Below are positions 10,042 to 32,418 of a stretch of 38,700 nucleotides of DNA, piece after piece (the first letter of the stretch is position 1; each line of letters begins with the position of its first letter). The stretch spans positions 1 through 38,700 of the forward strand of contig CALKXD010000071.1 of the NCBI GenBank assembly GCA_938003855.1. The letters are read 5' to 3'. This stretch comes from an uncultured Granulosicoccaceae bacterium (GTDB lineage: Bacteria; Pseudomonadota; Gammaproteobacteria; Granulosicoccales; Granulosicoccaceae). Under the pieces are notes generated by a model. That model was given only the letters and a program-made list of their open reading frames with translations. It was not told where the DNA came from and made no database searches. The position numbers and the translations under genes were made by a program.

Positions 10042-10109
10042 AATTCCTCCAGTGTTTAGAATCCTCGACGTCGACGCCTGTTGCATGGACGAAACCCGGA
10101 CCGGTATCA

Positions 10110-11242: not shown

Positions 11243-11293
11243 TGTCGACACAATATCGGGGTACGTTGCAGCAAGCCAGATTGCCGGTCGGCC

Positions 11294-13283: not shown

Positions 13284-13615
13284 TGTACCCCGGTCAGACC
13301 AGCCAACGCGTCAGCGTGGCGGTATTGCTGTTAGTGAGACAACGCCTGCGTGCTGTGTTTTCAGGGTTGCTGTTTTGACGTACCACCGCTGCGACTCCAC
13401 AGGCGACATAGCCTTGACCAGTGTGCCGGGTTGAACCCGTGGCGGTGTTGGTTTATGTATAGGATAAGCCGCTGGCTGCCGTGGATGTATTGTTTATTGT
13501 TATAAACTAGTAGGTATTATCGATTTGATTTCTTTTTGATAATCGTGAAACTAAAGGGGCTCGATAGCTGGGCGAACAAACATTGACGAACATTTTCAGT
13601 CGAGGAAAACCAATT
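13284..13615. promoter_or_regulatory. Divergent control region between FAD gene and ABC transporter
   Basis: This 332-bp region must hold promoters for both directions. Near the transporter side are two inverted repeats: GTTTAT and ATAAAC at 13492-13507 with a 4-bp spacer, and ATTATC and GATAAT at 13516-13543. A sequence at 13459-13470 (ATAGGATAAGCC) resembles one half of the LysR operator proposed at 18942-18964, but its other half is poor. I see no CTGTCAT-type Pho box. A GAGGAAAA ribosome site precedes ATG 13616. Confidence 0.45.
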
Positions 13616-14635
13616 ATGTTGCGAAAATTGTTATTGGCTCCGGTAGCGGTATCACTACTGGCGGCAACATCGCTTGCTGGTGCGGCTACTGAGCTCACTG
13701 TCTATACCGCTGTCGAAGCTGAAGATCTCAAGCGTTACGCTGAGACTTTCAACGAGGATCATCCCGATATAACCATCAACTGGGTGCGTGACTCCACCGG
13801 CATCGTGACCGCGAAACTGCTGGCAGAAAAAAACAACCCCCAGGCCGATGTTGTCTGGGGACTGGCAGCAACGTCGCTGCTGTTATTAAAAAGCGAGGGG
13901 ATGCTCGAAGCCTATGCACCGGCCGGTGTGGAGAAGCTTGACCCTAAATTTGTCGATAAATCCGATCCGCCAACCTGGACTGGAATGGATGCCTGGGTGG
14001 CATCGGTCTGCTACAACACTGTGGAGTCTGAAAAACTGGGTCTTAGCCCGCCTGCATCGTGGAAAGACCTGGCAGATCCCATGTACAAGGGTCATGTAAT
14101 TATGCCGAACCCGAATTCATCAGGTACCGGCTTTCTGGATGTGTCCAGCTGGCTGCAGATGTTTGGTGAAGAAGACGGCTGGAAATACATGGACGCCCTG
14201 CATGAGAACATCGCCCGCTATACACACTCGGGATCGAAGCCATGCAAGCTCGCCGCTGCTGGTGAGATACCCATTGGTGTCTCGTTTGCGTTTCGTGGTG
14301 CTAAGTCAAAGGCAGCGGGCGCGCCGCTTGACATCATCGTCCCCTCTGAAGGCGTGGGCTGGGATATGGAAGCTACCGCTATTGTTGCCGGTACCGCAAA
14401 CCTTGACGCTGCAAAGACACTGGTCGACTGGTCGATCACAGAAAAAGCCAACAAAATGTACAACGTTGGTTATGCCGTTGTCGGGATGCCCGGCATAGCG
14501 CAACCGGTCAAGTATTTCCCCGAAGGCCTGCTTGATGCCATGATCGACAACGATTTTGAATTCGCCGCCAATAACCGCAAGCGCATATTGGCCGAATGGC
14601 AGAGCCGGTACGACTCCAAGTCCGAAGCAAAATAG
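13616..14635 (+). CDS. aepX: 2-Aminoethylphosphonate-type ABC substrate-binding protein
   Basis: The 339-residue periplasmic binding protein has a signal peptide (about residues 1-23, ending SLAGA) and begins the mature part with TELTVYTAVEAEDLK. The segments WVRDSTGIVTAKLLAEKNNPQADVVWGLA and the iron-binding-protein-like fold match the PhnS2/AepX group of AEP binders (TIGR03261). ATG 13616 has a good ribosome site and sets the signal peptide correctly; the TTG at 13583 does not. It heads an operon with the ATPase and the fused permease. AEP is the likely ligand, and N-methylated analogues are possible given the neighbouring enzymes. Confidence 0.85.
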   Translation: MLRKLLLAPVAVSLLAATSLAGAATELTVYTAVEAEDLKRYAETFNEDHPDITINWVRDSTGIVTAKLLAEKNNPQADVVWGLAATSLLLLKSEGMLEAYAPAGVEKLDPKFVDKSDPPTWTGMDAWVASVCYNTVESEKLGLSPPASWKDLADPMYKGHVIMPNPNSSGTGFLDVSSWLQMFGEEDGWKYMDALHENIARYTHSGSKPCKLAAAGEIPIGVSFAFRGAKSKAAGAPLDIIVPSEGVGWDMEATAIVAGTANLDAAKTLVDWSITEKANKMYNVGYAVVGMPGIAQPVKYFPEGLLDAMIDNDFEFAANNRKRILAEWQSRYDSKSEAK

Positions 14636-14650
14636 CTGCACAGCACCAGC

Positions 14651-14711
14651 AGCGGATGTTCCATCCGCTCGCTACTACCGGCCCGGTTACTGTCGCGATC
14701 TGCGCGACAGT
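14651..14711 (+). other. Tandem hairpins between binding-protein and ATPase genes
   Basis: Two perfect stems lie in the 108-bp gap. AGCGGATG and CATCCGCT (14651-14669) form 8 bp with a 3-nt loop. ACTGTCGCG and CGCGACAGT (14689-14711) form 9 bp with a 5-nt loop. Such stems after a binding-protein gene commonly protect its mRNA or reduce read-through, so that the binding protein outnumbers the membrane complex. No T-run follows, so this is not a full terminator. Confidence 0.55.
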
Positions 14712-14743
14712 GGATCGTGTCTGTTTAACATCGGGCAGCAGTC

Positions 14744-15844
14744 ATGAGTAAATCTAAAAGCTATCTACAGATAGACAATCTCTGGAAGGCATTTGGCGAT
14801 TTTGTCGCCTTGCAAGACGTATCACTGGATGTTTTTGAGGGCGAGTTTGTCTGCTTTCTAGGACCGTCAGGGTGTGGCAAAACAACCTTGCTCAGGGCCA
14901 TCGCCGGGCTCGACCTGCAGAGCCGGGGCAGCGTTATTCAAGATGGCGTTGATGTGTCAGAGCTACCTCCGGCGCAACGCGATTTTGGTATTGTTTTTCA
15001 GTCCTACGCTCTGTTTCCCAATCTGACTATTCGAAAGAATATTGCCTTCGGGCTGGAAAATGCCGGACGTGACCGGGCCTCTATAAACAACCGTGTCGAA
15101 GAATTGCTGCAACTGGTGGGGCTGCCGGAGCAGGGCGATAAATATCCGGCACAGCTGTCCGGTGGTCAACAGCAGCGAATAGCGCTGGCACGTGCGATTG
15201 CCACCTCACCCGGGTTGTTGCTGCTCGACGAACCACTATCAGCGCTCGATGCCAAAGTGCGGGTGCGGCTTCGGCATGAGATAAAAGCGCTGCAACGTGA
15301 GCTCGGTGTTACCACTATCATGGTCACGCACGATCAGGAAGAAGCGCTGGCCATGGCCGACCGTATTGTGGTGATTAATGAGGGACGCATTGAGCAGGTC
15401 GGCACGCCTACAGAGATCTACCAGAATCCTCAAACGCTGTTTGTGGCGGATTTCATCGGTGAAATGAATCAGTTTGAGGCAACCATAGACGATCAGCGGC
15501 AATTGCAAATAGGCAGCAGCCGGTTTAGCTGCAGGTCACATGAATTTACCAGCGGCGCGCAGGTCATTGCGGCGATACGTCCCGACAACATCGTGCCGCA
15601 ACCGCTCGACTACAAAGCAGCGGGTGAAGTCAATTGTCACCGGGTGGTGCTAAAGGATATGGAGTTTCTTGGTTCATTCTGGCGCTGTCGCCTGCATAAC
15701 GAGAATTTTAAGGTAAATCATCTGATTGCTGATTTCTCGGCCAATGCGGTGCGCCGCCTCAATCTCCAGCCTGATCAATCGATGATGGTGCAGCTTCCCG
15801 AAGACACCATGATCATCTATGCCCGCGATGAAGCCCGCGTATGA
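14744..15844 (+). CDS. aepV: 2-Aminoethylphosphonate-type ABC transporter ATPase
   Basis: The 366-residue cytoplasmic ATPase shows Walker A GPSGCGKT (40-47), the Q-loop Gln86, signature LSGGQ (138-142), Walker B with DE at 162-163 and the switch His in MVTHDQEE. A C-terminal TOBE-like domain (about 240-360) follows, as in the PotA/FbpC/PhnT group. The start ATG 14744 gives the usual N-terminus before the first beta strand. Its stop overlaps the start of the permease gene by four bases (ATGA), which indicates translational coupling. It powers import of the ligand bound by the product of 13616-14635. Confidence 0.9.
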   Translation: MSKSKSYLQIDNLWKAFGDFVALQDVSLDVFEGEFVCFLGPSGCGKTTLLRAIAGLDLQSRGSVIQDGVDVSELPPAQRDFGIVFQSYALFPNLTIRKNIAFGLENAGRDRASINNRVEELLQLVGLPEQGDKYPAQLSGGQQQRIALARAIATSPGLLLLDEPLSALDAKVRVRLRHEIKALQRELGVTTIMVTHDQEEALAMADRIVVINEGRIEQVGTPTEIYQNPQTLFVADFIGEMNQFEATIDDQRQLQIGSSRFSCRSHEFTSGAQVIAAIRPDNIVPQPLDYKAAGEVNCHRVVLKDMEFLGSFWRCRLHNENFKVNHLIADFSANAVRRLNLQPDQSMMVQLPEDTMIIYARDEARV

Positions 15845-17862
15845 ACCCTGCGGCTAAGGGTAAGCTCTCACTGCCGGCCGGCCGCGATATCAAAGCGGTC
15901 GTCAGCCGTGACGATCACATGATGCGTTGGTGGATGGCGCTGATCGGGGTGTATTTGATCGTCACGTTGGCAATGCCGCTATATGCCATGCTGTCGAAGT
16001 CAGTATCAACGTATCGCTTTGACCTGCAGCAATTTGAGTTTCAGGTAAGTGATGAGGCTGGCGACTTTACCTCCCCGCCGGTGCTGGCCAGCAGCCTCAA
16101 CCAGACGTTGGGCGCAGTCAGTGCTCAAGCACTCAATACCAGCGCCGATGGCAGGCTTGCCGCTACCGAATTCTTCCCTGACTTCAGTTTCCGCAGTCCG
16201 GTAAATTACCGTATTCGGGGGACCTCGGAGCAGGCTGCGTATCTGGTTGGTTCGTCGTTAACCACCGGTACCGAATGGACGGAAATCGACTCCAATACTT
16301 TCCGGCGGGTGCAACTGCGACCGGTTGCCAGTACCGGTCTGGGTAATTTCAGCACCTACTTCTCGACGCCGGCATTGATGGGCTCGATCCGCAACTCGCT
16401 GTATATTGCGGTTATCAGCACGCTGATTACCGTGACACTGGCGTTTGGCTTTGCCTACGCGCTCAGTCGCAGTTGCGTTCGATATAAATCGACGTTCCGC
16501 TTAATTGCAATGATCCCGATTCTGGTGCCATCACTGTTGCCGGGTATTGCACTTATTTACCTGTTTGGCAATCAGGGTATGCTTAAAGAGCTTATGTTCG
16601 GTGGCACCATTTATGGCCCGACCGGTATTGTTCTGGGCTCGGTGTTTTTTACTTTTCCACATGCGTTTTTGATTATCTCAACGGCATTGAGTATTTCCGA
16701 TGCCCGTTACTATGAAGCCGCTGTATCACTGCGGTCATCGCCTTGGCGAACATTCCGGGTGGTGACGTTACCCGGCGCGCGATATGGCATTATCTCTGCG
16801 GCTTTTGTGGTGTTCAATCTGGTTATTACTGACTTCGGACTGCCCAAAGTGATCGGCGGTCAGTTTAACGTACTGGCGGTGGATATCTACAAACAGGTGA
16901 TCGGACAGCAGAACTTTGAGATGGGAGCGGTGGTGTCGGTCGTGCTGATCATCCCGGCTATCCTGGCTTTCACTATCGACCGCATTGTGCAGCGCAAGCA
17001 GGTAGCCTTATTGTCGGCCCGCGCCGTGCCGTACCAGCCGTCACCGGATAAAAAAGCCGACTCGATCTGGCTGGTGTATTGTGCAATGGTCAGCGTGTTT
17101 ATTGTGGGTCTGATAGCTGTTTGCCAGTATGCGGCGCTGGTGAAGTTCTGGCCTTACAACTTAACCTTAAGCCTGAATAACTATCAGTTCGATCAAATGG
17201 ACGGTGGTGGCTGGGCCAGTTACTTCAACTCGATTAAGCTTGGCCTGCTCACCGCCGTCGTGGGTACTTGCATCGTTTTTTTCGGCGCCTATCTGGTGGA
17301 AAAATCCAACGGTTTTAACACCGGGCGAGGTTTGTTCCAGATGGTAGCGATGTTACCAATGGCGATACCCGGCATGGTGCTCGGGCTTGCCTATATTTTC
17401 TTTTTCAATAGTCCGGCCAACCCGTTGAACGTGATTTACGGCACCATGACCATCCTGGTGGTGTGTACCGTTACGCACTTTTACACGGTGTCTCACCTGA
17501 CGGCAGTGACCGCACTTAAGCAGATGGACCGCGAGTTTGAAGCGGTGGCCGCATCGTTGAAGCAATCGGCACTGAAAGTATTTACCCGCGTGACGATTCC
17601 CGTCTGTCTGCCGGCGATACTGGATATATCGATTTACCTCTTTGTGAATGCAATGACAACCGTCTCGGCGGTGGTGTTTCTGTATTCGCCGAAAACCACA
17701 CTGGCGTCTATTGCCGTACTGAACATGGACGATGCTGGTGATATCGCACCGGCGGCGGCGATGGGTATGATGATTTTCTACACCAATGCCGGCGCCCGTA
17801 TCCTGCATCTTTTTGCGTCGCGTAAAATTCTCAAACGCACCCAGGCATGGCGGCAACGCTGA
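15841..17862 (+). CDS. aepW: Fused two-domain ABC permease, AEP type, with periplasmic insertion
   Basis: The 673-residue protein joins two BPD permease domains (about 175-390 and 445-670), each with an EAA loop (about 291-311 and 565-588) that docks the ATPase. This is the PhnU2/AepW-type fused permease, so one polypeptide replaces the usual permease pair. After TM1 (about 30-52) there is an insertion of about 110 residues (58-170), rich in Ser, Thr and Phe, which should face the periplasm; family members I recall are nearer 560-580 residues. The gene overlaps the ATPase gene by four bases. Transport of AEP or a related aminophosphonate is inferred from the whole operon. Confidence 0.85.
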   Translation: MNPAAKGKLSLPAGRDIKAVVSRDDHMMRWWMALIGVYLIVTLAMPLYAMLSKSVSTYRFDLQQFEFQVSDEAGDFTSPPVLASSLNQTLGAVSAQALNTSADGRLAATEFFPDFSFRSPVNYRIRGTSEQAAYLVGSSLTTGTEWTEIDSNTFRRVQLRPVASTGLGNFSTYFSTPALMGSIRNSLYIAVISTLITVTLAFGFAYALSRSCVRYKSTFRLIAMIPILVPSLLPGIALIYLFGNQGMLKELMFGGTIYGPTGIVLGSVFFTFPHAFLIISTALSISDARYYEAAVSLRSSPWRTFRVVTLPGARYGIISAAFVVFNLVITDFGLPKVIGGQFNVLAVDIYKQVIGQQNFEMGAVVSVVLIIPAILAFTIDRIVQRKQVALLSARAVPYQPSPDKKADSIWLVYCAMVSVFIVGLIAVCQYAALVKFWPYNLTLSLNNYQFDQMDGGGWASYFNSIKLGLLTAVVGTCIVFFGAYLVEKSNGFNTGRGLFQMVAMLPMAIPGMVLGLAYIFFFNSPANPLNVIYGTMTILVVCTVTHFYTVSHLTAVTALKQMDREFEAVAASLKQSALKVFTRVTIPVCLPAILDISIYLFVNAMTTVSAVVFLYSPKTTLASIAVLNMDDAGDIAPAAAMGMMIFYTNAGARILHLFASRKILKRTQAWRQR

Positions 17863-18049: not shown

Positions 18050-18925
18050 TCAGCCCGGTGTGGCGAGCTCGGTTTGTAGAAAGTCGACAAACGTTCGAAT
18101 CAGGCGCAGATCGGCGCGTTGTGCCACATAAAACAGTGTTTCCTCCATTTGCAGGTCGGTGTCGTTTATTGGCAGCCGGATCAGCCGGTCATCATTACCG
18201 AACTCGGCATCCGAAACAAAACCGATTCCGGCACCGGAGCCGACCATATCGCGCATGGTTTCGCGGCCCTCGACTTCCATCACCGGGGTCAGGGTGATGT
18301 TGCGCTTTTTGGCTTCCTTTTCCAGCAACTGACGGGTTTTGGAGCCTTGCTCGCGAAACACAATGGGCAGATCTGCTAATTCGGCAAGACTGATCGATTT
18401 GGTATCAGCCGGCAGATAGCCCCTGGCTGCAATGGCGATAATCGGCGTTGATCCGAGCGTCACCTGTTTGAGGTCGGCGCTGGTCGCGATACTGCCGCCA
18501 ATGGCGAGTTCGGCATTGTAGGCGCGCAACTCGGTAATCATGTCGTCAGTGTTGGCGGTGCGCATGGAGACAAAGACGTCGGGATACTGAGCCTGAAATT
18601 TTCCCAGCACCTCGGAGATGTGACTGGCGGAATCCACAATGATGCGCAGCACGCCTTCAACCACCGAGCGTTTTTCGTGAAGAAAGTCATTGATCTGATG
18701 CTCAACCTCGAAAAGATGCTTGGTCAGTTCGAACAACTGAGCGCCTTCGTCGGTCAGGAAAACGCGCTTTTTCTCGCGCCGGAACAGCAGCACATCGTGA
18801 TCCTGCTCGAGTCGTCGAACATGCTCCGACAGCGCCGGCTGGGTGAGAAACACCTTCTGCGATGCGCGCGAGAACCCGCCGTGAAGCGCTACGCTGTGGA
18901 AGGCTTTTAACTGACTGTAGCTCAC
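18050..18925 (-). CDS. LysR-family regulator of phosphonate catabolism
   Basis: The 291-residue LysR regulator has the N-terminal winged helix (SYSQLKAFHSVALHGGFSRASQ, then TQPALSEHVRRLE) and a C-terminal effector domain (about 90-285). It resembles the LysR clade that accompanies AEP catabolic genes (TIGR03339). I choose GTG 18925, because GGAG lies six bases upstream; GTG 18937 would add four residues. It is divergent from phnA across 120 bp containing a clear T-N11-A palindrome, so it probably activates phnA-phnY-pbfA and represses itself. AEP, phosphonoacetaldehyde or phosphonoacetate is the likely inducer (inference). Confidence 0.85.
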   Translation of the reverse strand: MSYSQLKAFHSVALHGGFSRASQKVFLTQPALSEHVRRLEQDHDVLLFRREKKRVFLTDEGAQLFELTKHLFEVEHQINDFLHEKRSVVEGVLRIIVDSASHISEVLGKFQAQYPDVFVSMRTANTDDMITELRAYNAELAIGGSIATSADLKQVTLGSTPIIAIAARGYLPADTKSISLAELADLPIVFREQGSKTRQLLEKEAKKRNITLTPVMEVEGRETMRDMVGSGAGIGFVSDAEFGNDDRLIRLPINDTDLQMEETLFYVAQRADLRLIRTFVDFLQTELATPG

Positions 18926-18941
18926 CGCGGTCTCCACACAA

Positions 18942-19010: not shown

Positions 19011-19045
19011 ACACCGTTTACAGCTTGCACCTACGGAATATTCTC

Positions 19046-20296
19046 ATGCCAATAGAGTCGCCCATAGAAGCGAACAATCGCACCTATCAGGCCCCGCACG
19101 CACCGGCCGTGGTTATCTGCCTCGACGGTTGTGAGCCCGCTTACCTGGATGCTGCCATCGCTGAAGGCCTGATGCCACATCTGAAACGCATACGCGAGAC
19201 CGGCACCGACCGGCAGGCGCACAGTGTTATTCCATCATTTACCAACCCCAATAATCTGTCGATCGCCACCGGGCAGCCGCCACGCGTCCACGGTATTTGC
19301 GGTAATTATCTGTTTGATCCGGAAACCCGCGAAGAAGTCATGATGAATGACGTGCGATTTCTATGGGTACCAACAGTGTTCAGGCGGTTTCAGCAGGCGG
19401 GAGCCAAAGTGGCTATCGTCACCGCAAAAGACAAACTGCGAGCGCTGCTCGGTGCCGAACTTGAATTCGTCGAAAACGGCGCCTGCTGTTTTTCGGCAGA
19501 GCGGTCAGACACCTCGACCCAGGCAGAGCACGGCATGGACAAAGCATCCGCATGGCTTGGCATGGCGCAGCCGGAAGTCTACTCGGCTGACTTGTCAGAG
19601 TTTGTTTTTGCCGCCGGCGTTAAGTTGCTTGCTGAACGCCGTCCCGACCTTATGTACCTCACCACGACAGACTACGTGCAGCATAAGCATGCTCCGGGCT
19701 CACCTGATGCCAATAGCTTTTATGAGATGTTCGATAAATATCTGGGTCAGCTCGACGACATGGGTGCGGTGATTGTGACCACCGCTGATCACGGCATGAA
19801 GCCCAAGCACAAAGCGGATGGCTCTCCGGATGTCATCTATGCGCAGGAAATACTCGATGAGCTTTGCGGCAAAGGCAATTCGCGGGTGATACTGCCGATA
19901 ACCGATCCCTATGTGGTGCACCACGGTGCGCTCGGCGGTTTTGCGACAGCGTATCTGCCATCCGATGCCAATGTCGCCGACATCATCGCTACTCTGGCGG
20001 CCACCAAAGGGATGTTGCAGGTGCTTACTAAAGCGCAGGCCGTCGAGCAATTCGATCTCCCCGAGGATCGCATCGGCGATATCGTCATGATCTCCGACGA
20101 AAACCAGGTGATAGGGACCAGTGAAGAAGGGCACGATCTCGCCGCATTGACCGAGCCACTGCGTTCGCACGGAGGCCTGACAGAGCAGGTGGTGCCGTTT
20201 ATTGTCAACCGCAGGATCGACATCCCCGACGCACCGCAACTGCGAAACTTTGACGCCATCTTTTACTCAACCACAGCGGCGAGCTCGACATCATGA
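19046..20296 (+). CDS. phnA: Phosphonoacetate hydrolase PhnA
   Basis: The 416-residue enzyme belongs to the alkaline phosphatase superfamily and hydrolyses the C-P bond of phosphonoacetate to acetate and Pi with two metal ions. The expected metal-site residues are visible: Asp27 ([10 protein letters not shown]), nucleophile Thr66 (PSFTNPNN), Asp209 and His213 (TTDYVQHKH), Asp248-His249 (TADHGM) and His375 (RSHGGLTEQ). ATG 19046 gives the usual N-terminus; the TTG at 19025 is less likely. It opens the operon phnA-phnY-pbfA-dehydrogenase, and its last four bases overlap the phnY start. The substrate is made by the neighbouring PhnY. Confidence 0.93.
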
Positions 20297-21756
20297 ACGG
20301 GTCTATAAAAGGTAAGGTCGAGGTTCGACACGAAGGCATGCGCATCGGTGGTGAGAAAGTTTTCACCGATAATGTCATTGAAGTGATCTACCCGTATACC
20401 AGAGAGTGCATTGGCACCGTACCGGCCGGTGATGCGTCACACGCAGCACGTGCGTTTGAGATTGCCGCCGCCTATAAGTCGACGCTGACCCGTTATGAGC
20501 GCCAGAAAATACTGCTGCGCACCGCTGAGCTGATCGGCGAGCGGCGTGAAGAACTAGCCTACTGGCTTACTCTTGAACTTGGTATCAGTCAGCAACACGC
20601 TTTATATGAAGCAGGCCGTGCCTGCGATGTCTTTACCTTTGCCGGACAAATGGCCATTGTTGATGATGGTCAGATATTCTCCTGTGACCTGACTCCGCAT
20701 GGCAAGGCGCGTAAAATTTACACAAAGCGCGAACCGGTGCGTACGATCTCGGCGATCACGCCGTTTAATCATCCGTTAAATATGGTCAGTCATAAAATTG
20801 CACCGTCTATCGCCACCAACAACTGCCTGGTATGTAAGCCCACAGAACTGACACCACTGACGGCTATCGCGCTGGCGGACATCCTCTACGAAGCCGGTTT
20901 GCCGCCTGCGATGTTCCAGGTAGTAACTGGTCTGCCGCAGGATATCGGCGATGAAATGGTCACCAACGAGAATATAGATATCATTACCTTTACCGGCGGC
21001 GTGCCAGTGGGTAAATTGATCGCCGCCAAGGCCGGTTACAGACGTACCGCTCTGGAGTTGGGCGGTAACGATCCATTAATCATACTCAACGATCTCAACG
21101 AACAAGACCTCGAAAAAGCCGCCACGATTGCGGTGGCTGGTGCGACGGGTAATTCCGGCCAGCGCTGTACTGCGGTCAAGCGGATACTGGTGCAGGAATC
21201 CGTCGCAGACAAGTTTGTGCCGATGGTACTGGAAAAAGCCAAGGCACTGAAGTTTGGTGACCCCATGGATCCTGATACCCAGTTGGGTTGTGTCATCAGT
21301 GCCGAGGCGGCAGAACTGTTTGAGCAGCGAGTACTCGATGCTGAAAAGCTCGGCGCAAATATTCTCTATCACCCGGAACGTCGCGGTGCCCTGTTGCCGC
21401 CGATAGTGGTCGACCATGTGCCGCACGGCTGTGAACTGGTGATGGAAGAAACCTTCGGCCCGATTGTGCCCATTGTCAGAGTGCCCGACGATGATGAGCA
21501 GGTCATGGCAATTTCCAACAGCACGCAGTTCGGGTTGTCGTCAGGGGTGTGCACCAATAACCTGCACCGTGCGATGGCCTTCATCGAAGGTCTTGATGTC
21601 GGTACCTGCAACATCTGGGAGCAGCCGGGGTACCGCATAGAAATGTCGCCGTTTGGTGGTGTTAAAGACAGTGGCAACGCGGTCAAGGAAGGTGTGCTCG
21701 AAGCAATGAAGTTTTTCACCGTAGTGAAAACCTACTCGCTGCCGTGGCCGTCGTAG
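20293..21756 (+). CDS. phnY: Phosphonoacetaldehyde dehydrogenase PhnY
   Basis: The 487-residue aldehyde dehydrogenase has the nucleophile Cys292 in [12 protein letters not shown] and the general base Glu255 in ALELGGNDP, at the positions expected for PhnY. It oxidises phosphonoacetaldehyde to phosphonoacetate with NAD(P)+, the substrate for PhnA. Its ATG overlaps the phnA stop (ATGA), so the two are translationally coupled, as expected for consecutive steps. The assignment rests on this context together with family features; the ALDH family is broad. It should not be confused with the oxygenase PhnY* of the PhnZ pathway, which carries the same symbol in the literature. Confidence 0.92.
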
Positions 21757-21797: not shown

Positions 21798-21815
21798 TTT
21801 GAAAAAGGATTGCTT

Positions 21816-23195
21816 ATGCCGGGCAAGCTGACACATACCGAGGGAGAATCGAACACATCTTCGGTACGTGCTGAATGGCAGCAAAGGACACACAAGCCGG
21901 CATCGGCTCCGCTACTGGCGCGCGATGCCAAGGTATTTCTGCACCAGAGTCTGTCCAGTCCCTGTGTCTCGAGCATCGCCCGGGCTGAAGGCAGCTGGAT
22001 CGAGGATCACGACGGAAATCGCTACCTTGATTTCCATGGCAATTCGGTGCATCACCTGGGTTACGGGCATCCGCGGCTGGTCGCCGCGATAAAAAAACAA
22101 CTCGACGATCTATCCTTTGCGCCGCGTCGCTTCACCTGCGACCCGGCGGTTGAGTTAGCCGAGAAGCTGGTCTCAATTACCCCCGGTGATTTGAGCAAAG
22201 TTCTGTTTACCACCGGTGGTTCAGATGCCAATGAAGTAGCGCTGAAAATTGCCCGTGCCGCCACCGGCCGTTTTAAAACCGTGTCGTTCTGGGACTCCTT
22301 CCACGGCGCCGGGTTCGGTGCTGCCAGTGTCGGCGGTGAAGCGACTTTTCGGTCTCATATTGCCGGTCCGTTGTTGCCGGGAGCCGAGCACGTCGCACCG
22401 TTCAATTGTTATCGATGTCCCTATAATCACAGCGGTCCGGACACCTGCGGGCTGGCCTGTGCGCAGATGGTGGACTACGTGCTGGGCCGCGAAACCGATG
22501 TGGCCGCGGTTATTGCCGAGCCGATGCGAGCCGTCCCTTTTGTGCCGCCCCCGGGATTCTGGACGCAGGTCAGAGAGGCTTGCCACCGACACGGTGCCCT
22601 GTTAATTATGGACGAAATCCCGACGGGGCTCGGTAAAACCGGCCGCATGTTTGCGTTTGAGCACGACCATGTGATTCCCGATATCGTCACAGTCGGTAAA
22701 TCACTGGGGGGTGGCATACTGCCGATTGCAGCGGTAATCGCCAGGTGTGAGCTTGATGTCTGCGGTGATTTTGCCATAGGGCACTATACCCACGAAAAAA
22801 ATCCGGTGACCAGCCGGGCGGCGTTGACCACACTGCAGATAATCGAGGATGAGGGTCTGGTCGAGCGCGCCGAACGACTCGGAAACTACGCCATGAGCCG
22901 ACTCAGGGATACCCTGCGGAGCTGCTCGATTGTCGGCGACATTCGTGGTCGGGGTGTGATGTTCGGTGTCGAAATCGTCCATAATCGCGACAGTAAAACC
23001 GCCGGCAACGATCTGGCTGAAGAAATCTACTACCGGTGTCTGGACGGGGGGCTCAGTTTTAAGATATCGCAGGGGTGTGTATTAACCCTGTCGCCGCCAA
23101 TGACAATCTCCGAGGCCGACCTCGATCAGGCATTAGATGTGGTGGAAGCGGCAATTCAGCAGGTTGCAGAATCCAAAAGAGAAAAGCAAACATGA
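21816..23195 (+). CDS. pbfA: PbfA-type (R)-1-hydroxy-2-aminoethylphosphonate ammonia-lyase
   Basis: The 459-residue PLP enzyme has the class III aminotransferase fold, with Lys295 in TVGKSLGGG as the cofactor lysine and a DEIPTGLGKTGRMF motif. Its N-terminal FLHQSLSSPCVS, the LDFHGNSVHHLGYGHPR segment, SPRRFTCDP-like region and YTHEKNPV pattern match proteins encoded beside phosphonate genes. These are now known to eliminate ammonia from (R)-1-hydroxy-AEP, giving phosphonoacetaldehyde. Its position after phnA-phnY supports this. ATG 21816 has AGGA upstream; the TTG two codons earlier is less likely. A true transaminase acting on another amine remains possible. The gene overlaps the next one by four bases. 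Confidence 0.85.
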   Translation: MPGKLTHTEGESNTSSVRAEWQQRTHKPASAPLLARDAKVFLHQSLSSPCVSSIARAEGSWIEDHDGNRYLDFHGNSVHHLGYGHPRLVAAIKKQLDDLSFAPRRFTCDPAVELAEKLVSITPGDLSKVLFTTGGSDANEVALKIARAATGRFKTVSFWDSFHGAGFGAASVGGEATFRSHIAGPLLPGAEHVAPFNCYRCPYNHSGPDTCGLACAQMVDYVLGRETDVAAVIAEPMRAVPFVPPPGFWTQVREACHRHGALLIMDEIPTGLGKTGRMFAFEHDHVIPDIVTVGKSLGGGILPIAAVIARCELDVCGDFAIGHYTHEKNPVTSRAALTTLQIIEDEGLVERAERLGNYAMSRLRDTLRSCSIVGDIRGRGVMFGVEIVHNRDSKTAGNDLAEEIYYRCLDGGLSFKISQGCVLTLSPPMTISEADLDQALDVVEAAIQQVAESKREKQT

Positions 23196-24202
23196 AGGTA
23201 GTACGAACGGATTCTGAACTACAAACACCGCAGATTGACCAGGGCTTGTTAGCTCTGGGTCATCAGCTTGTACTGCTGCCCGACGGCGTGTCGGAATCTG
23301 ATCTGATCCACGCAGTGGCTGATGCCGACCTGCTACTCATGTGCTATACACCCATAACAGATAAGGCGATTGATGCAGCCGTGAAGTTGAAGGGAATCGT
23401 TAAATATGGTGTGGGTATAGATGCGATTGATATTGATGCCGCCAGGCGACGCGGCATTGTGGTAGTCAATGTGCCGGAGTACGCAGAGGAAACCGTGGCA
23501 GAGGGAGCATTTACCCTGATGGCCGCATTAGCAAAGAAACTGCTGCCGCTGGACCGGCAGATGAAAGCCCACGGCTGGGCCTGGCCGGAACCCGACTGGC
23601 TATCCTCTGACATCGCCGGTAAGACTGTCGGGCTGATCGGTTTTGGACGAATCGGCAAAAGTATGGCGCGCATGGCCGGTAACGGTTTCCGCGCACGCGT
23701 CATTGCCTACAGTCCGCACACACCACCAGAAGAAATGTCGGCACTGGGGGTTGAGCAATTTACCGACCTTCAGGCACTGATGCGGGAGAGTGATTTTGTG
23801 TCGGTGCATTGTGTGCTGAATCCGGAAACCCGTCATCTGATAGCAGAGCAGGAACTGCGTGCGATGAAGCCGACGGCATTTCTGATCAACGTCTCGCGTG
23901 GTGCCATCGTTGATGAGCAGGCCTTAGTCAAGGTTCTCTCTGAAGGTGGCATCGCTGGTGCAGGGCTTGATGTATTCTCGAATGAGCCGCTAACGCTCAA
24001 GGATCACCCCTTGTCGGGTTTATTTGATCACCCCGGTGTCATACTGTCACCGCATCTGACTTTCTACACCCGTGAGGCCATGCAACGGCTGGAGACTGAA
24101 ACGCTGCAACGCTGTCGCGAGATACTTGAAGACCGGCCGGTGCTGGTTAAGTCGGCCGACAGCCGACTGGCGGCGCAAACTGGACTGGCGCACTACCCGT
24201 GA
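23192..24202 (+). CDS. D-isomer-specific 2-hydroxyacid dehydrogenase in phosphonate operon
   Basis: The 336-residue enzyme has the NAD(P) motif GFGRIG (150-155) and the catalytic Arg236, Glu265 and His288 of D-2-hydroxyacid dehydrogenases. The acidic residue that usually ends the second Rossmann strand is replaced by Ser174 (IAYSPH), which suggests NADP rather than NAD. The start ATG 23192 overlaps the pbfA stop (ATGA), so it is translationally coupled to PbfA. A hydroxyacid step is not part of the known PhnW-PhnY-PhnA or PbfA routes. Phosphonolactate/phosphonopyruvate, glyoxylate or hydroxypyruvate are candidate substrates. A phosphite dehydrogenase function is conceivable, but no phosphite-specific signature was recognised. 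Confidence 0.85.
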   Translation: MKVVRTDSELQTPQIDQGLLALGHQLVLLPDGVSESDLIHAVADADLLLMCYTPITDKAIDAAVKLKGIVKYGVGIDAIDIDAARRRGIVVVNVPEYAEETVAEGAFTLMAALAKKLLPLDRQMKAHGWAWPEPDWLSSDIAGKTVGLIGFGRIGKSMARMAGNGFRARVIAYSPHTPPEEMSALGVEQFTDLQALMRESDFVSVHCVLNPETRHLIAEQELRAMKPTAFLINVSRGAIVDEQALVKVLSEGGIAGAGLDVFSNEPLTLKDHPLSGLFDHPGVILSPHLTFYTREAMQRLETETLQRCREILEDRPVLVKSADSRLAAQTGLAHYP

Positions 24203-24281: not shown

Positions 24282-25964
24282 GTGGTGCGCACAGTGACGT
24301 TGCTCGGTTTTTTTGTGCAACTGGCTGGTGCCACCATGTTATTGCTGTACGCGGTACGCATGGTGCGTACCGGGATTGAGCGCGCGTTCGGCGCATCGTT
24401 CAGACGCCACGTCACTACCACTTCCAGTGCCACCGCCGCCGCCTCTACCGGATTAGTACTGGCCATTGTGCTTCAGAGCTCTGCAGCGGTAGCGCTGCTG
24501 GTAGCCGGTTTTGCCGGTAGTGGCGCACTCGGCTTTGCACCGGGCCTGGCTATTATTCTGGGTGCTGACCTGGGCTCAGCGCTGCTGATTCAAGTGCTGT
24601 CCTTTGATCTGGAGTGGCTGACACCGGCGCTGCTGGCTATTGGCGGCGGATTTTTTATTAAGTCAGACCGACGTCAGCTGAAGCAGGCCGGGCGCATAAT
24701 CCTCGGGGTGGCGTTTATCCTTATCTCGCTACGCTTTCTGCGTGAAACCATGCTGCCGATTCGGGAGAGTGACTTCCTGCCAGCGGTGGCCGCCTATCTG
24801 GAAAAAGATCTGCTCACGGCATTTATTGCCGGAGCAATTCTTACCTTTGTCATGCATTCATCTGTGGCCACTATATTGATGTGCGTCACTATAGTTTCGA
24901 TAGATGCGCTGCCGGTTTATGCGGCCACCGGTCTGGTGCTGGGTGCCAACCTGGGGTCAGCGCTGATCCCGGTATGGCTGAGTCGCGGGATGAAAACCGA
25001 GGCACGGCGTCTGCCGCTGGCCAACCTGCTGGTACGCGGCAGCTTTGCGGTGCTGGCGCTGTTAGTGGTATCGCGGTTTGGCCTGCCACAGTGGTTACTC
25101 GGTTTCGGCAACGCCCAGGCTCTGATTACCGCGCACGTTGCGTTTAACTGCCTGCTGATGCTGGTGGTGCCGATCTGTGCGATGATGGATAGACCGGTAT
25201 CAATATTGTTGCCAACCGCACCGGCGTCAGTCATTGAGAACCCGATCCTGCGCCCGGCGCTCGATGAATCAGCGCTCGACAAACCAACCCTGGCTATTGC
25301 GAGCTTACGCCGTGAGGTGCTGCGCATGGCGCAGGTGGTGGAGAGCATGGTGACTCCAGTGATGGCGCTTTACACAAACTTTGACCTGGCTCGCATGAAT
25401 GCAATCAGAGCACAGGATTCCATTGTTAATTCGGCCCTCGACGAGATCAAGCACTACGTCGCCTCTATGCCAAATGATGGTATGTCGGCGGAACAGCGCA
25501 ACCAGACCAGAGAGCTTACCGAATATGCAATTGCGCTTGAGACCGCTGGCGATATCGTTGGCAAGCAACTGCTGATACTGGCTCAGGAGAAAGCCGACGA
25601 TGGCGTGCTGCTGTCACGCGACGGTACCGATGAGCTTGCCAATATGCACGAGCGCTTGCTGCAGAACCTGACACTGGCCATGAACCTGCTGATATCCAAT
25701 GATCTGGAAAGTGCCCGGTTACTGCTGGAAGAGAAATCAGAAATGGTGCGCCTGGAACGCGCCAGTCGGAAAAAACATCTCAAGCGGTTGAGTAATGGTT
25801 CGGCGGTCAGTTTTGATTCCAGCAATATACATCTCGAGACGCTGCGCGCACTCAATGAATGCAACAGTCGTATCGCAACCCTTGCGTACCCGATTTTATA
25901 CCGGGGTGGCCAGTTGCTGGAAACCCGCCTGATCGAAAACCTCGATAAAGTCGACAGAGGCTGA
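24282..25964 (+). CDS. Na+/phosphate cotransporter with PhoU-like C-terminal domain
   Basis: The 560-residue protein has two Na/Pi-cotransporter repeats, marked by LQSSAAVALLVAG near residue 63 and MHSSVATILMC near residue 190, with about eight or nine membrane segments up to residue 310. A cytoplasmic PhoU-like helical domain follows (about 345-550). It belongs to the NptA/YjbB group, members of which move phosphate with Na+ and can act in export. In this operon it may dispose of the excess Pi from PhnA or TmpB. The GTG start at 24282 is uncertain; another GTG lies four codons later. It begins 79 bp after the dehydrogenase stop and may be co-transcribed. Confidence 0.87.
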   Translation: MVRTVTLLGFFVQLAGATMLLLYAVRMVRTGIERAFGASFRRHVTTTSSATAAASTGLVLAIVLQSSAAVALLVAGFAGSGALGFAPGLAIILGADLGSALLIQVLSFDLEWLTPALLAIGGGFFIKSDRRQLKQAGRIILGVAFILISLRFLRETMLPIRESDFLPAVAAYLEKDLLTAFIAGAILTFVMHSSVATILMCVTIVSIDALPVYAATGLVLGANLGSALIPVWLSRGMKTEARRLPLANLLVRGSFAVLALLVVSRFGLPQWLLGFGNAQALITAHVAFNCLLMLVVPICAMMDRPVSILLPTAPASVIENPILRPALDESALDKPTLAIASLRREVLRMAQVVESMVTPVMALYTNFDLARMNAIRAQDSIVNSALDEIKHYVASMPNDGMSAEQRNQTRELTEYAIALETAGDIVGKQLLILAQEKADDGVLLSRDGTDELANMHERLLQNLTLAMNLLISNDLESARLLLEEKSEMVRLERASRKKHLKRLSNGSAVSFDSSNIHLETLRALNECNSRIATLAYPILYRGGQLLETRLIENLDKVDRG

Positions 25965-26114: not shown

Positions 26115-27320
26115 ATGAGTAACTTCAGCGTGAATGAAACTATCCTGCCACCCGTTGGCGGTGAGCCCTATTTACTGACTCCGGGGCCGCTCACCACAGC
26201 GGCCAGTGTCAAGCAATCGATGCTGGTGGACTGGGGGTCGTGGGACGAAGATTTCCGCGCCATGACGCGACAGTTGCGATCAGAGCTGTTAGCGATGATC
26301 GAAGATACTCAACACCAGTTTGAGTGTGTACCCATGCAGGGCAGCGGCACCTTTGTGGTTGAAGCCATGCTGGGTTCTCTGCTGCCACCGGCAAGCAAGA
26401 CGCTGGTGCTGGTCAATGGCGCTTATGGTCAGCGCATGGTTAAGACCTTACAGCGCATCGGCCGCGACCATGTTTTTATCGACAAGGGCGACTACCTGCC
26501 ACCGCGCGCCACTGAGGTGAGCGCGGCGCTGGCTGCCGACCCGGCCATCAGCCATGTAGTGGTGGTGCATTGTGAAACCAGCTCCGGCATCCTAAATCCG
26601 ATCGAAGAGATTTCCGAGGCCGTCTATCGTGCCGGTCGCAAGTTATTGATCGACTCCATGAGCGGCTTCGGTGCGCTGCCTTTGACTATTGACGGTGTAC
26701 GGTTTGAAGCGATCGTCTCATCGGCAAACAAGTGTATAGAGGGTGTGCCTGGTTTTGGCTTTGTGCTGGTGCGACGCGATGCACTACAGCAGTCCGAAGG
26801 GTGCTGCCATTCGCTGAGCCTTGATCTCTACGATCAGTGGCAGCAAATGGAGAACACCGGACAATGGCGCTATACGCCACCAACGCATGTGATCGCGGCA
26901 TTTATGGAAGCGCTGCGCCTGCACCGGGATGCCGGAGGGGTGCCGGCGCGGCTGGCCCGTTATACGCAAAACCGTGATGTGCTTGTCAGCGGGATGCGCG
27001 CACTGGGCTTTGAAACGCTTTTACAGGAGCGTTGGCTGTCGCCGGTTATCGTGACCTTTTTTAATCCCGCCGACGCCGCTTTTGAGTTCAGTAAATTCTA
27101 TGAACTAATGAAAACCAAAGGGTATATTATCTACCCTGGCAAGCTCACAGTCGTCGACAGCTTCCGCGTTGGATGCATCGGTCAGCTTGATGCAGACGTG
27201 ATGCGAGGTGTGGTGGCCGCTGCTAAGCAGTCCCTGGCAGAGATGGGGGTGGTCAGTGCCCGCGCCCCCCGTGCAGCGTATGATGAGCGCAGCAAAATTC
27301 CGGTGGATGCCTGGCAATAG
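26115..27320 (+). CDS. phnW: 2-Aminoethylphosphonate-pyruvate transaminase PhnW
   Basis: The 401-residue class V PLP transaminase starts with the signature YLLTPGPLTT and has its PLP lysine at Lys206 in SSANKCIEGVPGFGF. Other PhnW features are MQGSGTFVVEAML and a C-terminal RVGCIGQL segment. It transfers the amino group of AEP to pyruvate, giving phosphonoacetaldehyde and alanine, the entry step for PhnY and PhnA. A 30-residue C-terminal tail beyond the usual end of about 370 is present. The gene starts 150 bp after the Na/Pi carrier, so it may have its own promoter, and the phosphonate ester hydrolase gene follows 69 bp later. Confidence 0.93.
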   Translation: MSNFSVNETILPPVGGEPYLLTPGPLTTAASVKQSMLVDWGSWDEDFRAMTRQLRSELLAMIEDTQHQFECVPMQGSGTFVVEAMLGSLLPPASKTLVLVNGAYGQRMVKTLQRIGRDHVFIDKGDYLPPRATEVSAALAADPAISHVVVVHCETSSGILNPIEEISEAVYRAGRKLLIDSMSGFGALPLTIDGVRFEAIVSSANKCIEGVPGFGFVLVRRDALQQSEGCCHSLSLDLYDQWQQMENTGQWRYTPPTHVIAAFMEALRLHRDAGGVPARLARYTQNRDVLVSGMRALGFETLLQERWLSPVIVTFFNPADAAFEFSKFYELMKTKGYIIYPGKLTVVDSFRVGCIGQLDADVMRGVVAAAKQSLAEMGVVSARAPRAAYDERSKIPVDAWQ

Positions 27321-27389: not shown

Positions 27390-28940
27390 ATGAAATCACA
27401 CACTGAACAACCCAATATCTTGCTGATCACCGCTGACCAGTGGCGGGGTGATTGCCTGTCAGCCATTGGTCATCCTTTGGTACGCACGCCAAACCTCGAT
27501 GCGCTGGCAGAGCAGGGCGTGTTATTTGAACGCCACTACGCCGGTGCTGCGCCCTGTTCACCGGCGCGTGCCTGTCTGTACACCGGCTTGTATCAGATGA
27601 ACAATCGAGTGTGCATCAATGGCTCGCCGCTTGACCGGCGTCACGACACCCTGGCACTGGCATTTCGACGGCTGGGCTATGACCCGACGCTGTTCGGTTA
27701 TACCGATCAATCTGAAGACCCGCGTGTACTGCACCCAAATGATCCAAAGCTGCGTAGCTACGAAGGCATGCTGCCGGGTTTTAACTGGCGGGTCAGTATT
27801 CCCGATCACCAGTATCCGTTTTTGTCGTGGTTGCATGAAAGAGGCTATAGCGATGCGCTCAGCGGGGTCAATATGTGCATCCCCGAAGCCGGCGTTGATG
27901 ATCCGCCACAGGGTAAAGTGCCACGGTACCGTGCAGAGCACACCGAAACCGCGTATCTGGTCGATGAATTCAAGCGCTGGCTCAATGAGCAAACCCTGCA
28001 TACCTCGCGGCAGCCCGACAATCGCTGGTTCGCGCACGTGAGTTTTCTGCGCCCTCATCCGCCGTTTACGGTGCCGGCGCCCTACGACACCCTGGTGTCC
28101 GCCGATGAGGTTGCCGACTTTAACGGCGCCACCGACCCCGCTGTTACCGCCGCGATGCACCCGTTGCTCGACTGGATCGTTGAGTCAAACCCGAAAGACC
28201 GCTTTATACCGGGCGCCGAAGGATTAGCGCGCGACTGGACCCAACACGACCTCAAGCAGATTGCTGCTACCTACTATGGCATGGTGGCTGAAGTTGACGC
28301 GCAGATCGGACGCATGATCGATGCCCTCAAAGCGACAGGCAGCTACGACAATACCCTGATCGTTTTCACCTCCGATCACGGAGAGCAACTTGGCGATCAC
28401 ACGCTGCTGGGTAAGCATGGGTTCTTTGACAGCAGTTACCATATTCCATTGATCATTCGTGATCCCGCCGCCACCGGTGGTAAACGTGTCAGAGACTTTA
28501 CCGAGAGTGTCGATATATTCCCCACACTGATGGACAGAATGGGGGCTGAAATCCCGGTCCAACTCGATGGTAAATCGTTGCAGCCGATTATAGACACCGG
28601 CGTAACGCCGGCGCACTGGCGCACGGCGGCGCATTGGGAGTACGACTTCCGTGGCCTGCCGGAAGGCGATGCCGAGAAGCGCTTTAATCTAGGTTCTGTG
28701 CGCTGCAACCTCAGCGTGTTGCGGCGCGATAATATCAAGTACGTACATTTTGCCGGCCTGCCGCCGTTGTTGTTCGATCTGACTGCCGATCCACACGAAA
28801 CGCATAATGTTGCCGGTGATCCAGCCTATCAGGCAATACAGCTGGAGTGTGCAGAGGCGCTGCTGAGCTGGCGCGCCGAGCATCTGGACAGAACACTGAC
28901 GATGATGGTGCTGACAGAGGACGGTGTGGTTGCGGGTTGA
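27390..28940 (+). CDS. pehA: Phosphonate monoester hydrolase, PehA/PMH type (formylglycine sulfatase superfamily)
   Basis: The 516-residue enzyme belongs to the sulfatase superfamily with the formylglycine motif CSPAR (Cys56) and metal residues Asp16 and Asp329-His330 (DHGEQLGDH). Length, motif position and many segments (LYQMNNRVC, LDRRHDTL, GYDPTLFGYT, RPHPPF, KYVHFAGLPPLLFDLTADPHE, ALSWR-like end) follow the rhizobial and Burkholderia phosphonate monoester hydrolases as I remember them. Those cleave phosphonate monoesters and phosphodiesters. Here it could free phosphonates from ester-linked glycans or lipids before PhnW. No signal peptide is visible, so it acts in the cytoplasm. A formylglycine-generating enzyme is not encoded in the window. 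A plain sulfatase or phosphodiesterase is the alternative. Confidence 0.82.
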   Translation: MKSHTEQPNILLITADQWRGDCLSAIGHPLVRTPNLDALAEQGVLFERHYAGAAPCSPARACLYTGLYQMNNRVCINGSPLDRRHDTLALAFRRLGYDPTLFGYTDQSEDPRVLHPNDPKLRSYEGMLPGFNWRVSIPDHQYPFLSWLHERGYSDALSGVNMCIPEAGVDDPPQGKVPRYRAEHTETAYLVDEFKRWLNEQTLHTSRQPDNRWFAHVSFLRPHPPFTVPAPYDTLVSADEVADFNGATDPAVTAAMHPLLDWIVESNPKDRFIPGAEGLARDWTQHDLKQIAATYYGMVAEVDAQIGRMIDALKATGSYDNTLIVFTSDHGEQLGDHTLLGKHGFFDSSYHIPLIIRDPAATGGKRVRDFTESVDIFPTLMDRMGAEIPVQLDGKSLQPIIDTGVTPAHWRTAAHWEYDFRGLPEGDAEKRFNLGSVRCNLSVLRRDNIKYVHFAGLPPLLFDLTADPHETHNVAGDPAYQAIQLECAEALLSWRAEHLDRTLTMMVLTEDGVVAG

Positions 28941-29084: not shown

Positions 29085-29675
29085 CTAGACGTTAAAATTA
29101 CGATCAACGACGCGTTGTACCATTGGTGCAAAGTGCGCAAAGGACTGTGTCTGCATATTACTGTGCTTGCCACCATCATCAAGGTAGCGCACCTGAATAA
29201 TTTTCGCCAGGTTCGGTTTTTTCTCGAAGTCGGTTACCTCGTCGGGGCTCATCGGTCCACCCTGCAGATTTAGTGAATGCACCGATGCCTCTGACAACTG
29301 ATCGAAGTAGTCCGGAACGGTGGCGCAAAGATAGCGTTTGGCTGCGACATGGTGGCGAACGCAATCGGTCACGACGGTCGGGAAAAAACCGGACAACACA
29401 TCGGCGCCGGCGTCTTCGTGATAGCGGTCTTTGGTGTCCTGCAGGGTGAAGGTGCCGAACTCACTGGTAAAGTGGCCAATGTCGTGCAGCAGCGCCGCAA
29501 CGATGATTTCTTCGTCCATTCCGTCGCGTTCTGCCATCGTTGCACCCTGCAGCATGTGTTCGGCCATGGTGACGGGTTCGCCCAGGTATTCTTCGCCGCC
29601 ACGGCGTTCAAAGATATCCTGCAGGAACGCGACAATAGTGTGCTGATTGAGGGTAGGGATCGGGGGCTTGGTCAT
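29085..29675 (-). CDS. tmpB: TmpB/PhnZ-type mixed-valence di-iron oxygenase
   Basis: The 196-residue HD-domain protein is of PhnZ/TmpB type. It has the active-site Tyr30 and Glu33 (YLGE), His40 (AEHMLQ), His64-Asp65 (LLHDIGH), His86 (YHED), and His109 with Lys113 (RHHVAAKRYL), the set used to hold two irons and the 1-hydroxyphosphonate. Such enzymes cleave the C-P bond oxidatively. Coupled to the TmpA-like gene 22 bp upstream, the expected reaction is (R)-1-hydroxy-2-trimethylaminoethylphosphonate to glycine betaine and Pi. ATG 29675 gives the usual length; the longer frame overlaps tmpA. PhnZ activity on (R)-1-hydroxy-AEP, giving glycine, is the alternative. Confidence 0.87.
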   Translation of the reverse strand: MTKPPIPTLNQHTIVAFLQDIFERRGGEEYLGEPVTMAEHMLQGATMAERDGMDEEIIVAALLHDIGHFTSEFGTFTLQDTKDRYHEDAGADVLSGFFPTVVTDCVRHHVAAKRYLCATVPDYFDQLSEASVHSLNLQGGPMSPDEVTDFEKKPNLAKIIQVRYLDDGGKHSNMQTQSFAHFAPMVQRVVDRNFNV

Positions 29676-29697
29676 GCGGTGCGTTCTCGCTGTTAAA

Positions 29698-30819
29698 CTA
29701 TGCCGCTGCGTTGAGGCAGGCCAGGGTGGATAACAATCCGTCCTTGTCGGCATAGCATCCTTGCAGCCAGCGCTTGCCGGTGCCGGAATAGGCTTTGCGG
29801 GCATGCAGGACACGGGTATTGTCGACAATGAAGCACTCACCGGGTTGCAAGAGGAAACTCACTTCCAGTGACGCGTCGTCAACCAGTTCGCTCATACGAC
29901 GGTAGGCGGCATAGTAAGTGGTCATTTTATCGAATGGCACATCGGTAAAGGCAGTGGCAGAGCGGTTATTAAAATGTATAGCGCGCAGTTCGCCATTGGC
30001 GGCCAGCTCGATCATCGGATGGCTGGCGCGCAGGCACACGCCGGATTCACCACGGTATTCAAACTGAGCGGGATAACGGCTGAGCACATCAAACCACTCT
30101 TGGTTTTCGTCGCGCAGGCGTTGTGCCACGCGAAAACCGTCGACTACCATGTTCTCGCCACCGGCGGCGGAGCTTTCGAGGCAATACAATATCTGCAGGG
30201 TCGGCACCGGGTCGCGGTAGGGGTTGTCGGTGTGAGCCTGCAGCCCCAGGCCGGTGTAGGCGAGGTTGCTGGCGTTGACTTCGGTGCGGACCTCAAAATG
30301 CCGGCCGTAGTTGGTTTCCCTGACGTAGCCGAACAGATCAACGACCTGCATCAGTGCCTGATCTTCAACGGGTCCGTTGCGCAGCAAGCCAACCCCATAG
30401 CGCGCGACATTGGCCAGCCAGTGTCTGAGTGATTCAGGGTTCTGCTGCACGTCGAAAAAATCAGCGCGCGGTGCACTGAGCTCGCCGCCCCAGGGCTCGA
30501 TACCGTTTGCCGTGCGACCGTGCAGTCCTGCCGCAGGTTGGTCGTAGGCGTGCAGCAGCAGCCACGGGATCGGGTAGCTTATAGTTTTATCTTCCGGTTG
30601 AAACGTGATGTGCGCGGCCTGGTCATCAACCTGTACAGCCGACATGCTCAGTTGTTCGGGAATATCACCAAGGCCGATCAATCGCTGGCCGTTGTGAGTG
30701 GAACGTGTCTCTGCATCGTGAGCGTTATCACGCAACCAGATGGCGTGATAGCGGGTGGTACTGTCGGCGGATGAAATAGCGACGTGCTGCCCGTCGTCAC
30801 TCAGAACAGAGGTGTACAT
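29698..30819 (-). CDS. tmpA: TmpA-type 2-oxoglutarate oxygenase (trimethylaminoethylphosphonate hydroxylase)
   Basis: The 373-residue protein resembles gamma-butyrobetaine hydroxylase. An N-terminal DUF971-like domain (about 10-95) is followed by a TauD domain with the iron triad His196-x-Asp198 (LQAHTDNPYRDP) and His339 (VLHARKAY), and a 2-oxoglutarate arginine about 350. The cysteines that bind zinc in the N-terminal domain of true butyrobetaine hydroxylases are absent after WLRDN. Next to a PhnZ/TmpB-type gene, the likely substrate is 2-trimethylaminoethylphosphonate, hydroxylated at C1. I take ATG 30819; a TTG at 30879 would add 20 residues. It is the first gene of the tmpAB unit. Confidence 0.85.
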   Translation of the reverse strand: MYTSVLSDDGQHVAISSADSTTRYHAIWLRDNAHDAETRSTHNGQRLIGLGDIPEQLSMSAVQVDDQAAHITFQPEDKTISYPIPWLLLHAYDQPAAGLHGRTANGIEPWGGELSAPRADFFDVQQNPESLRHWLANVARYGVGLLRNGPVEDQALMQVVDLFGYVRETNYGRHFEVRTEVNASNLAYTGLGLQAHTDNPYRDPVPTLQILYCLESSAAGGENMVVDGFRVAQRLRDENQEWFDVLSRYPAQFEYRGESGVCLRASHPMIELAANGELRAIHFNNRSATAFTDVPFDKMTTYYAAYRRMSELVDDASLEVSFLLQPGECFIVDNTRVLHARKAYSGTGKRWLQGCYADKDGLLSTLACLNAAA

Positions 30820-30873
30820 GTGGTTGCCTGGACTCGGTTGAAAGGGGGGTATCGTTCCACGAAGCGGGTTTGA

Positions 30874-30897
30874 ACACAAACAAGTTATGCTTTGTGT
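30874..30897. promoter_or_regulatory. Candidate operator upstream of tmpA
   Basis: ACACAAA (30874-30880) and TTTGTGT (30891-30897) form a perfect 7-bp inverted repeat with a 10-bp spacer, 55-78 bp upstream of the tmpA start. It differs from the LysR palindrome near phnA, so another regulator would be involved. Confidence 0.4.
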
Positions 30898-32315: not shown

Positions 32316-32330
32316 TTTTTGCCGGTGTTT

Positions 32331-32358
32331 TTGTCGGCAAGTGCTTCTGGATTATACT
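32331..32358 (+). promoter_or_regulatory. Candidate promoter of the PhyH dioxygenase
   Basis: TTGTCG (32331-32336) and TATACT (32353-32358) have a 16-bp spacer, and the predicted start lies about 55 bp before ATG 32419. The -35 overlaps a stem formed by TTGCCG (32319-32324) and CGGCAA (32335-32340). Confidence 0.45.
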
Positions 32359-32418
32359 GTGCGTTCCAGACGATAATCACATGATGGCAGGGTGCTTACA
32401 CATCCTCGGAGAAATCTC

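Follow-up and report, generated by a model that had tools for sequence, protein, structure and literature searches.

Phosphonate monoester hydrolases (PMHs) serve as models in the study of catalytic promiscuity, and we know of no natural substrate assigned to them. Four have solved structures: RlPMH (2VQR), BcPMH, also called PehA (2W8S), SpPMH (4UPK) and the PMH of Agrobacterium radiobacter (4UPH). The gene considered here encodes a new member of this known family. It is located within a window of 38,700 nucleotides, the whole stretch of DNA that was analysed, from an uncultured Granulosicoccaceae bacterium of the Gammaproteobacteria, where it occupies positions 27390..28940 of the + strand and encodes 516 amino acids from an ATG start. 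The protein belongs to the alkaline phosphatase superfamily and is built on the Pfam Sulfatase domain. Among solved structures, the four PMHs named above are the closest relatives, with E values of 1.6e-184 to 4UPH (55-56% identity), 2.9e-118 to 2VQR and 1e-115 to 2W8S. An AlphaFold model, generated from the window PMH and 35 homologues from the compared loci (mean pLDDT 93), superposes on 4UPH with a Z score of 57.5 and a deviation of 1.2 A over 499 aligned residues, followed by 2VQR (53.7), 2W8S (52.9) and 4UPK (49.9), and then by the arylsulfatases SpAS2 (43.2) and SpAS1 (42.9). The fold, the metal and formylglycine residues and the Tyr at position 105 are common to the window enzyme and the known PMHs. 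A short C-terminal β-hairpin tail is a feature of tetramer-type PMHs (PMC5870055), and the hairpin of the solved enzymes also appears in the model at residues 506-515, with strands at 506-509 and 512-515.

The active site is conserved as well. The predicted formylglycine nucleophile is C56, within the CxPxR motif C56-S-P-A-R60, which agrees with the position given for this residue in the initial annotation, and the metal site is composed of D16, Q17, D329 and H330. Ten of the 11 active-site residues compared with RlPMH are identical (D16, Q17, C56, R60, N77, Y104, H223, D329, H330 and K342), and nine of the RlPMH residues (D12, Q13, C57, R61, N78, H218, D324, H325 and K337) are identical in the window PMH and invariant across 90 homologues. 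The sole difference is at RlPMH T107, which is D106 in the window PMH; Asp occupies this position in 85 of the 90 homologues and is the state found in most PMHs. A formylglycine-generating enzyme is also encoded in the same genome, as judged by a PF03781 match and E values of about 1e-93 to solved enzymes of this type. An Asp or Thr at the position of RlPMH residue 107 marks PMHs, whereas His marks sulfatases, and those with Asp, the majority, have been termed D-PMHs (PMC5488252). The window protein carries this signature, having Y104 and D106 where arylsulfatases have Lys and His (PMC5488252). The name PehA-type, used when the gene was first annotated, is a loose one, since the protein reaches 525 bits against the cut-off of 900 for the NCBIfam PehA equivalog (NF045661). 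D-type PMH is more exact.

The Sulfatase domain and the CSPAR sulfatase motif would both be expected of an arylsulfatase-like enzyme that acts on a sulfate ester and lies among its present neighbours incidentally, and sulfatase-type relatives do occur near some 2-aminoethylphosphonate (AEP) or oligopeptide-type (Opp) importer clusters (loci L189, L193 and L194). The Lys/His pair of the superfamily's arylsulfatases, at positions 101 and 103 of SpAS1, is nonetheless replaced by the Y104/D106 of PMHs, while a sulfatase from the same genome, included as an outgroup, retains it. The nearest structures are likewise all PMHs, at Z scores of 50-57 for the four of them against 43 for SpAS1 and SpAS2. 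Sulfatase identity was rejected on this signature and structure ranking, and an incidental arylsulfatase is most improbable. Owing to the Y104/D106 signature, a preference for sulfate esters, which would have counted against the initial annotation, also appears unlikely.

The genomic setting of the gene is best compared with the described AEP catabolic clusters, namely those of the phnWX and phnWAY types with pbfA and pbfF (PMC8154272, PMC10590968, PMC12366243). The window likewise contains phnW, phnA, phnY, pbfA, a pbfF-like gene, a LysR regulator and an AepXVW importer, but differs in the inclusion of a phosphonate-ester hydrolase. On the + strand, phnA (phosphonoacetate hydrolase, 19025..20296; TIGR02335, 512 bits, cut-off 408) is followed by phnY (phosphonoacetaldehyde dehydrogenase, 20293..21756; TIGR03250, 747 bits, cut-off 636), pbfA (21810..23195; NF049939, 674 bits, cut-off 525), a pbfF-like gene for an NAD-dependent HAEP racemase of the 2-hydroxyacid dehydrogenase families (23192..24202, with a likely ATG at 23192 that overlaps the pbfA stop), a gene for a Na/Pi cotransporter-like protein (24282..25964; NF037997, 106 bits, cut-off 50), phnW (2-aminoethylphosphonate:pyruvate aminotransferase, 26115..27320; NCBIfam PhnW models at 464-549 bits, above cut-off) and, as the last gene of this co-directional run, the PMH. 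With phnW, phnA and phnY all above their NCBIfam cut-offs between 19025 and 27320, the locus is a hydrolytic AEP cluster of the phnWAY type. The PMH gene directly follows phnW on the same strand, as first annotated, after a gap of 69 bp in which no terminator-like site was found.

Upstream of the run, also on the + strand, lie the three genes of an AepXVW-type AEP ABC importer (PhnS2, PhnT2 and PhnU2, 13583..17862; three NCBIfam models, all above cut-off). The - strand carries a LysR regulator of the AEP-catabolism type, divergent from phnA (18050..18937; TIGR03339, 283 bits, below the cut-off of 341), and a Pbf-type FAD-dependent aminophosphonate oxidoreductase (12165..13283; TIGR03364, 362 bits, cut-off 285). 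Convergent with the PMH gene is tmpB, for the (R)-1-hydroxy-2-trimethylaminoethylphosphonate oxygenase (29085..29840, - strand; NF049941, 341 bits, cut-off 300), along with tmpA, for the 2-trimethylaminoethylphosphonate dioxygenase (29698..30879, - strand; NF049936, 552 bits, cut-off 400). The region is one of AEP, HAEP and trimethyl-AEP catabolism.

Several neighbouring features deserve mention in their own right. The Na/Pi cotransporter-like gene is also found beside phnW in loci L092, L178, L197, L198 and L201, and its product may serve phosphate movement tied to AEP mineralisation. PbfF has been reported from two alphaproteobacterial orders only (PMC12366243); the pbfF-like gene here follows pbfA in a gammaproteobacterium, is 62% identical to the gene right behind pbfA in a Mesorhizobium plurifarium cluster, and is present at loci L089, L092, L098, L099 and L193 as well. 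Divergent from tmpA, an enolase-superfamily dehydratase-like gene and then a gene for a PhyH-type dioxygenase (31113-33273, + strand) could be part of the phosphonate region. A large protein with an animal-haem-peroxidase domain is encoded on the - strand adjoining the cluster (33399-35264), and a TRAP transporter set with a sulfotransferase-domain gene lies upstream of it on the same strand (6584-10110 and 10487-11251).

The association of PMH with AEP genes recurs well beyond this window, with some ten gene orders spread over at least two classes. The order oppABCDF-phnW-phnX-PMH occurs in six genomes. Others include oppABCDF-FAD-phnX-PMH, FAD-phnX-PMH, PMH beside a convergent phnX-FAD pair, phnW-phnA-phnY-PMH, phnA-phnY-oppABCDF-PMH, pbfA-pbfF-oppABCDF-PMH-aepXVW, phnW-PMH-metE and the window type itself, together with FAD-phnX-ABC importer-PMH on a Pararhizobium plasmid. 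In another gammaproteobacterial family (L193), PMH-oppA-oppBC is divergent from phnW-phnA-phnY-pbfA-pbfF. When linkage to AEP genes is mapped on the PMH tree, at least nine changes are needed, and linked enzymes fall in both main branches, one of which holds SpPMH and RlPMH. The association is thus a repeated one and not a single inherited block. The known enzymes themselves differ in this respect, as the RlPMH gene adjoins an Opp/Dpp importer without AEP genes and the SpPMH gene is apparently solitary, whereas the window PMH gene is situated inside an AEP-catabolic cluster.

Co-occurrence across genomes points the same way. Among 48 genomes of the window's order, with PMH called at E values below 1e-60, PMH is present in 14, phnW in 14 and both in 13 (Fisher P of 1e-9; about 1e-7 when stratified by genus). 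Among 297 genomes of Hyphomicrobiales, PMH is present in 63 and phnW in 69, and 33 genomes have the two together, against 14.6 expected. The relationship is sharpest for the phnW subfamily of the window type, since PMH is present in 23 of the 26 Hyphomicrobiales genomes that have it (odds ratio 44, p 1e-14), while choline sulfatase, a control from the same superfamily, reaches an odds ratio of 2.3 (p 0.04) with that phnW set. The two genes lie within 10 kb of one another in 7 of the 33 Hyphomicrobiales genomes having both, where 0.15 would be expected by chance, although the P value for this adjacency treats genomes as independent and overstates the case, since six of the operons (L111-L116) are related. 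In a class-wide survey of Gammaproteobacteria, 6 of the 369 genomes had PMH, a number too small for a statistical test. A common genome size or lifestyle as the sole cause of the co-occurrence is weakened by the genus stratification and the choline sulfatase control. The linkage of phnW and PMH that the initial annotation proposed to look for in other genomes is thus recurrent and the co-occurrence strong, and adjacency to phnW is not peculiar to this genome, being seen also in Hyphomicrobiales and at L193.

The link is not universal. AEP-catabolic genes lie within 10 kb of 15 of the 65 PMH loci of Hyphomicrobiales, at least three Opp/Dpp importer genes lie near 20, and both accompany eight. 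Nearly all of the remaining 50 loci without nearby AEP genes belong to Mesorhizobium, which supplies the commonest PMHs of the Hyphomicrobiales sample, and a universal PMH-phnW link was rejected because nearly all of these are located elsewhere. Since 50 of the 65 are not near AEP genes, the PMH family may have several roles. These PMHs without AEP neighbours would suit a general phosphodiesterase for phosphorus scavenging, acting for example on glycerophosphodiesters, with the AEP genes nearby as a common phosphorus-acquisition neighbourhood. Characterised PMHs are promiscuous and also cleave phosphodiesters (PMC5649143; PMC5488252), and Ugp or Glp glycerol-phosphate genes are close to PMH at L111-L115 and L108. 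The partners, however, are specifically AEP-catabolic and stand in tight co-directional runs, through all the gene orders and classes described above, and the presence of PMH follows the window-type phnW subfamily, which another hydrolase of the superfamily does only weakly. A general scavenging role is accordingly rather doubtful.

The reading preferred here is that the window PMH opens the AEP pathway, as a formylglycine-dependent hydrolase of phosphonate monoesters in the cytoplasm; to this we assign a probability of roughly 70%, from sequence and genomic context. The enzyme is probably cytoplasmic, as no hydrophobic signal stretch is apparent at its N-terminus. An importer would bring into the cell a small monoester, either of AEP itself or of its hydroxy- or N-methyl form, and PMH would cut the P-O-C bond of this ester to yield an alcohol and free AEP. 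The latter would then be turned into phosphonoacetaldehyde by PhnW or the TIGR03364 flavoenzyme, and phosphate would be released by PhnY and PhnA, or by PhnX elsewhere. Such a monoester is the simplest substrate because an ester hydrolase that appears cytoplasmic has its gene placed between those for an importer and those for AEP enzymes. For free AEP, the affinity of AepX is in the nanomolar range and its specificity is high (PMC8316502). At L098 the PMH gene has an AepXVW importer on one side and an Opp importer on the other, and since the importer specific for free AEP is already present there, the cargo of the Opp importer is probably a different one. Small AEP monoesters, such as glyceryl-AEP from phosphonolipids, may be taken up by a dedicated Opp/Dpp-type ABC importer and de-esterified by PMH inside AEP-degradation operons, a so far unrecognised module towards which the evidence leans slightly. 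Against an entry-step role, the window cluster itself has no Opp importer; none was found there, the remaining upstream genes of the window being of the EamA, AraC, RDD, beta-lactamase-fold, MFS and TRAP types. The nearest homologue of an Opp binding protein in this genome is on a different contig, where oppBCDF and the gene for a sulfatase-type hydrolase accompany it.

The alcohol part of the ester may be glycerol, the glyceryl ester being the deacylated head of a phosphonolipid, which is plausible but weakly supported, and a guess. Glycerol is suggested by the GlpR and UgpBAEC genes 3' of PMH in L111-L115 and by glpD and glpK adjoining PMH in L108, which amount to two lineages, five related genomes and a plasmid, and the Ugp genes may form a separate operon. 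BcPMH, for its part, reportedly cleaves glyceryl glyphosate, the glyceryl ester of an aminophosphonate.

AEP-decorated glycans or lipids had been proposed as the true substrates when the gene was annotated. The functional link to AEP catabolism is well supported and a natural ester as substrate is supported by context, while glycans and lipids as direct substrates are weakened. AEP does occur on glycans and lipids (PMC6697681), and PEH has been proposed to free phosphonates from marine polysaccharides (PMC5649143), as would befit an enzyme that strips AEP directly from such material outside the cytoplasm. PMH is unlikely, however, to act directly on intact lipids or polymeric glycans, because it appears cytoplasmic; the importer-binding protein from the same operon type has a signal peptide and PMH has no apparent one. 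An importer is also repeatedly encoded alongside PMH, and extracytoplasmic action is thus very unlikely. The Opp/Dpp-type importer in many clusters points instead to the uptake of small esters that stem from such polymers or lipids. The proposal of Sosa et al. 2017 (PMC5649143) is the same in idea, in that PMH frees natural esterified phosphonates, but was founded on presence in genomes with C-P lyase and on polysaccharides, whereas the present case is built on operons in which PMH accompanies AEP enzymes and an importer.

The main texts of the AEP-cluster papers (PMC8154272, PMC10590968, PMC12366243) contain none of the words sulfatase, alkaline phosphatase or monoester. No published report of PMH in AEP operons was found, the literature on esterified-AEP catabolism and glyceryl glyphosate included; coverage of subscription journals was thin, and a prior mention is possible. 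The recurrence of PMH in differently arranged operons for AEP uptake and breakdown suggests that its long-unknown job is the freeing of AEP from imported esters. Much of the AEP in biological material is tied up in lipids and glycans, and entry through PMH would account for bacterial access to part of this esterified pool, which present schemes of phosphonate cycling leave as a gap. If true, enzymes long studied for their promiscuity would gain a native substrate class, one that the repeated operonic tie to AEP enzymes and an importer makes testable.

Two further features of these loci may be noted. A MetE-like (Meth_synt_2) methyltransferase gene is repeatedly found beside PMH (L092, L093/L017, L095, L096 and L126) or beside an Opp importer (L189:7448-8500). 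A sulfatase-type (GKTH) hydrolase is encoded near the oppABCDF set on contig C113 of the window's own genome (L189:5550-7166, - strand), and in L193 and L194 distant relatives of PMH are encoded close to AEP genes; these are possibly a second ester hydrolase for the same substrates.
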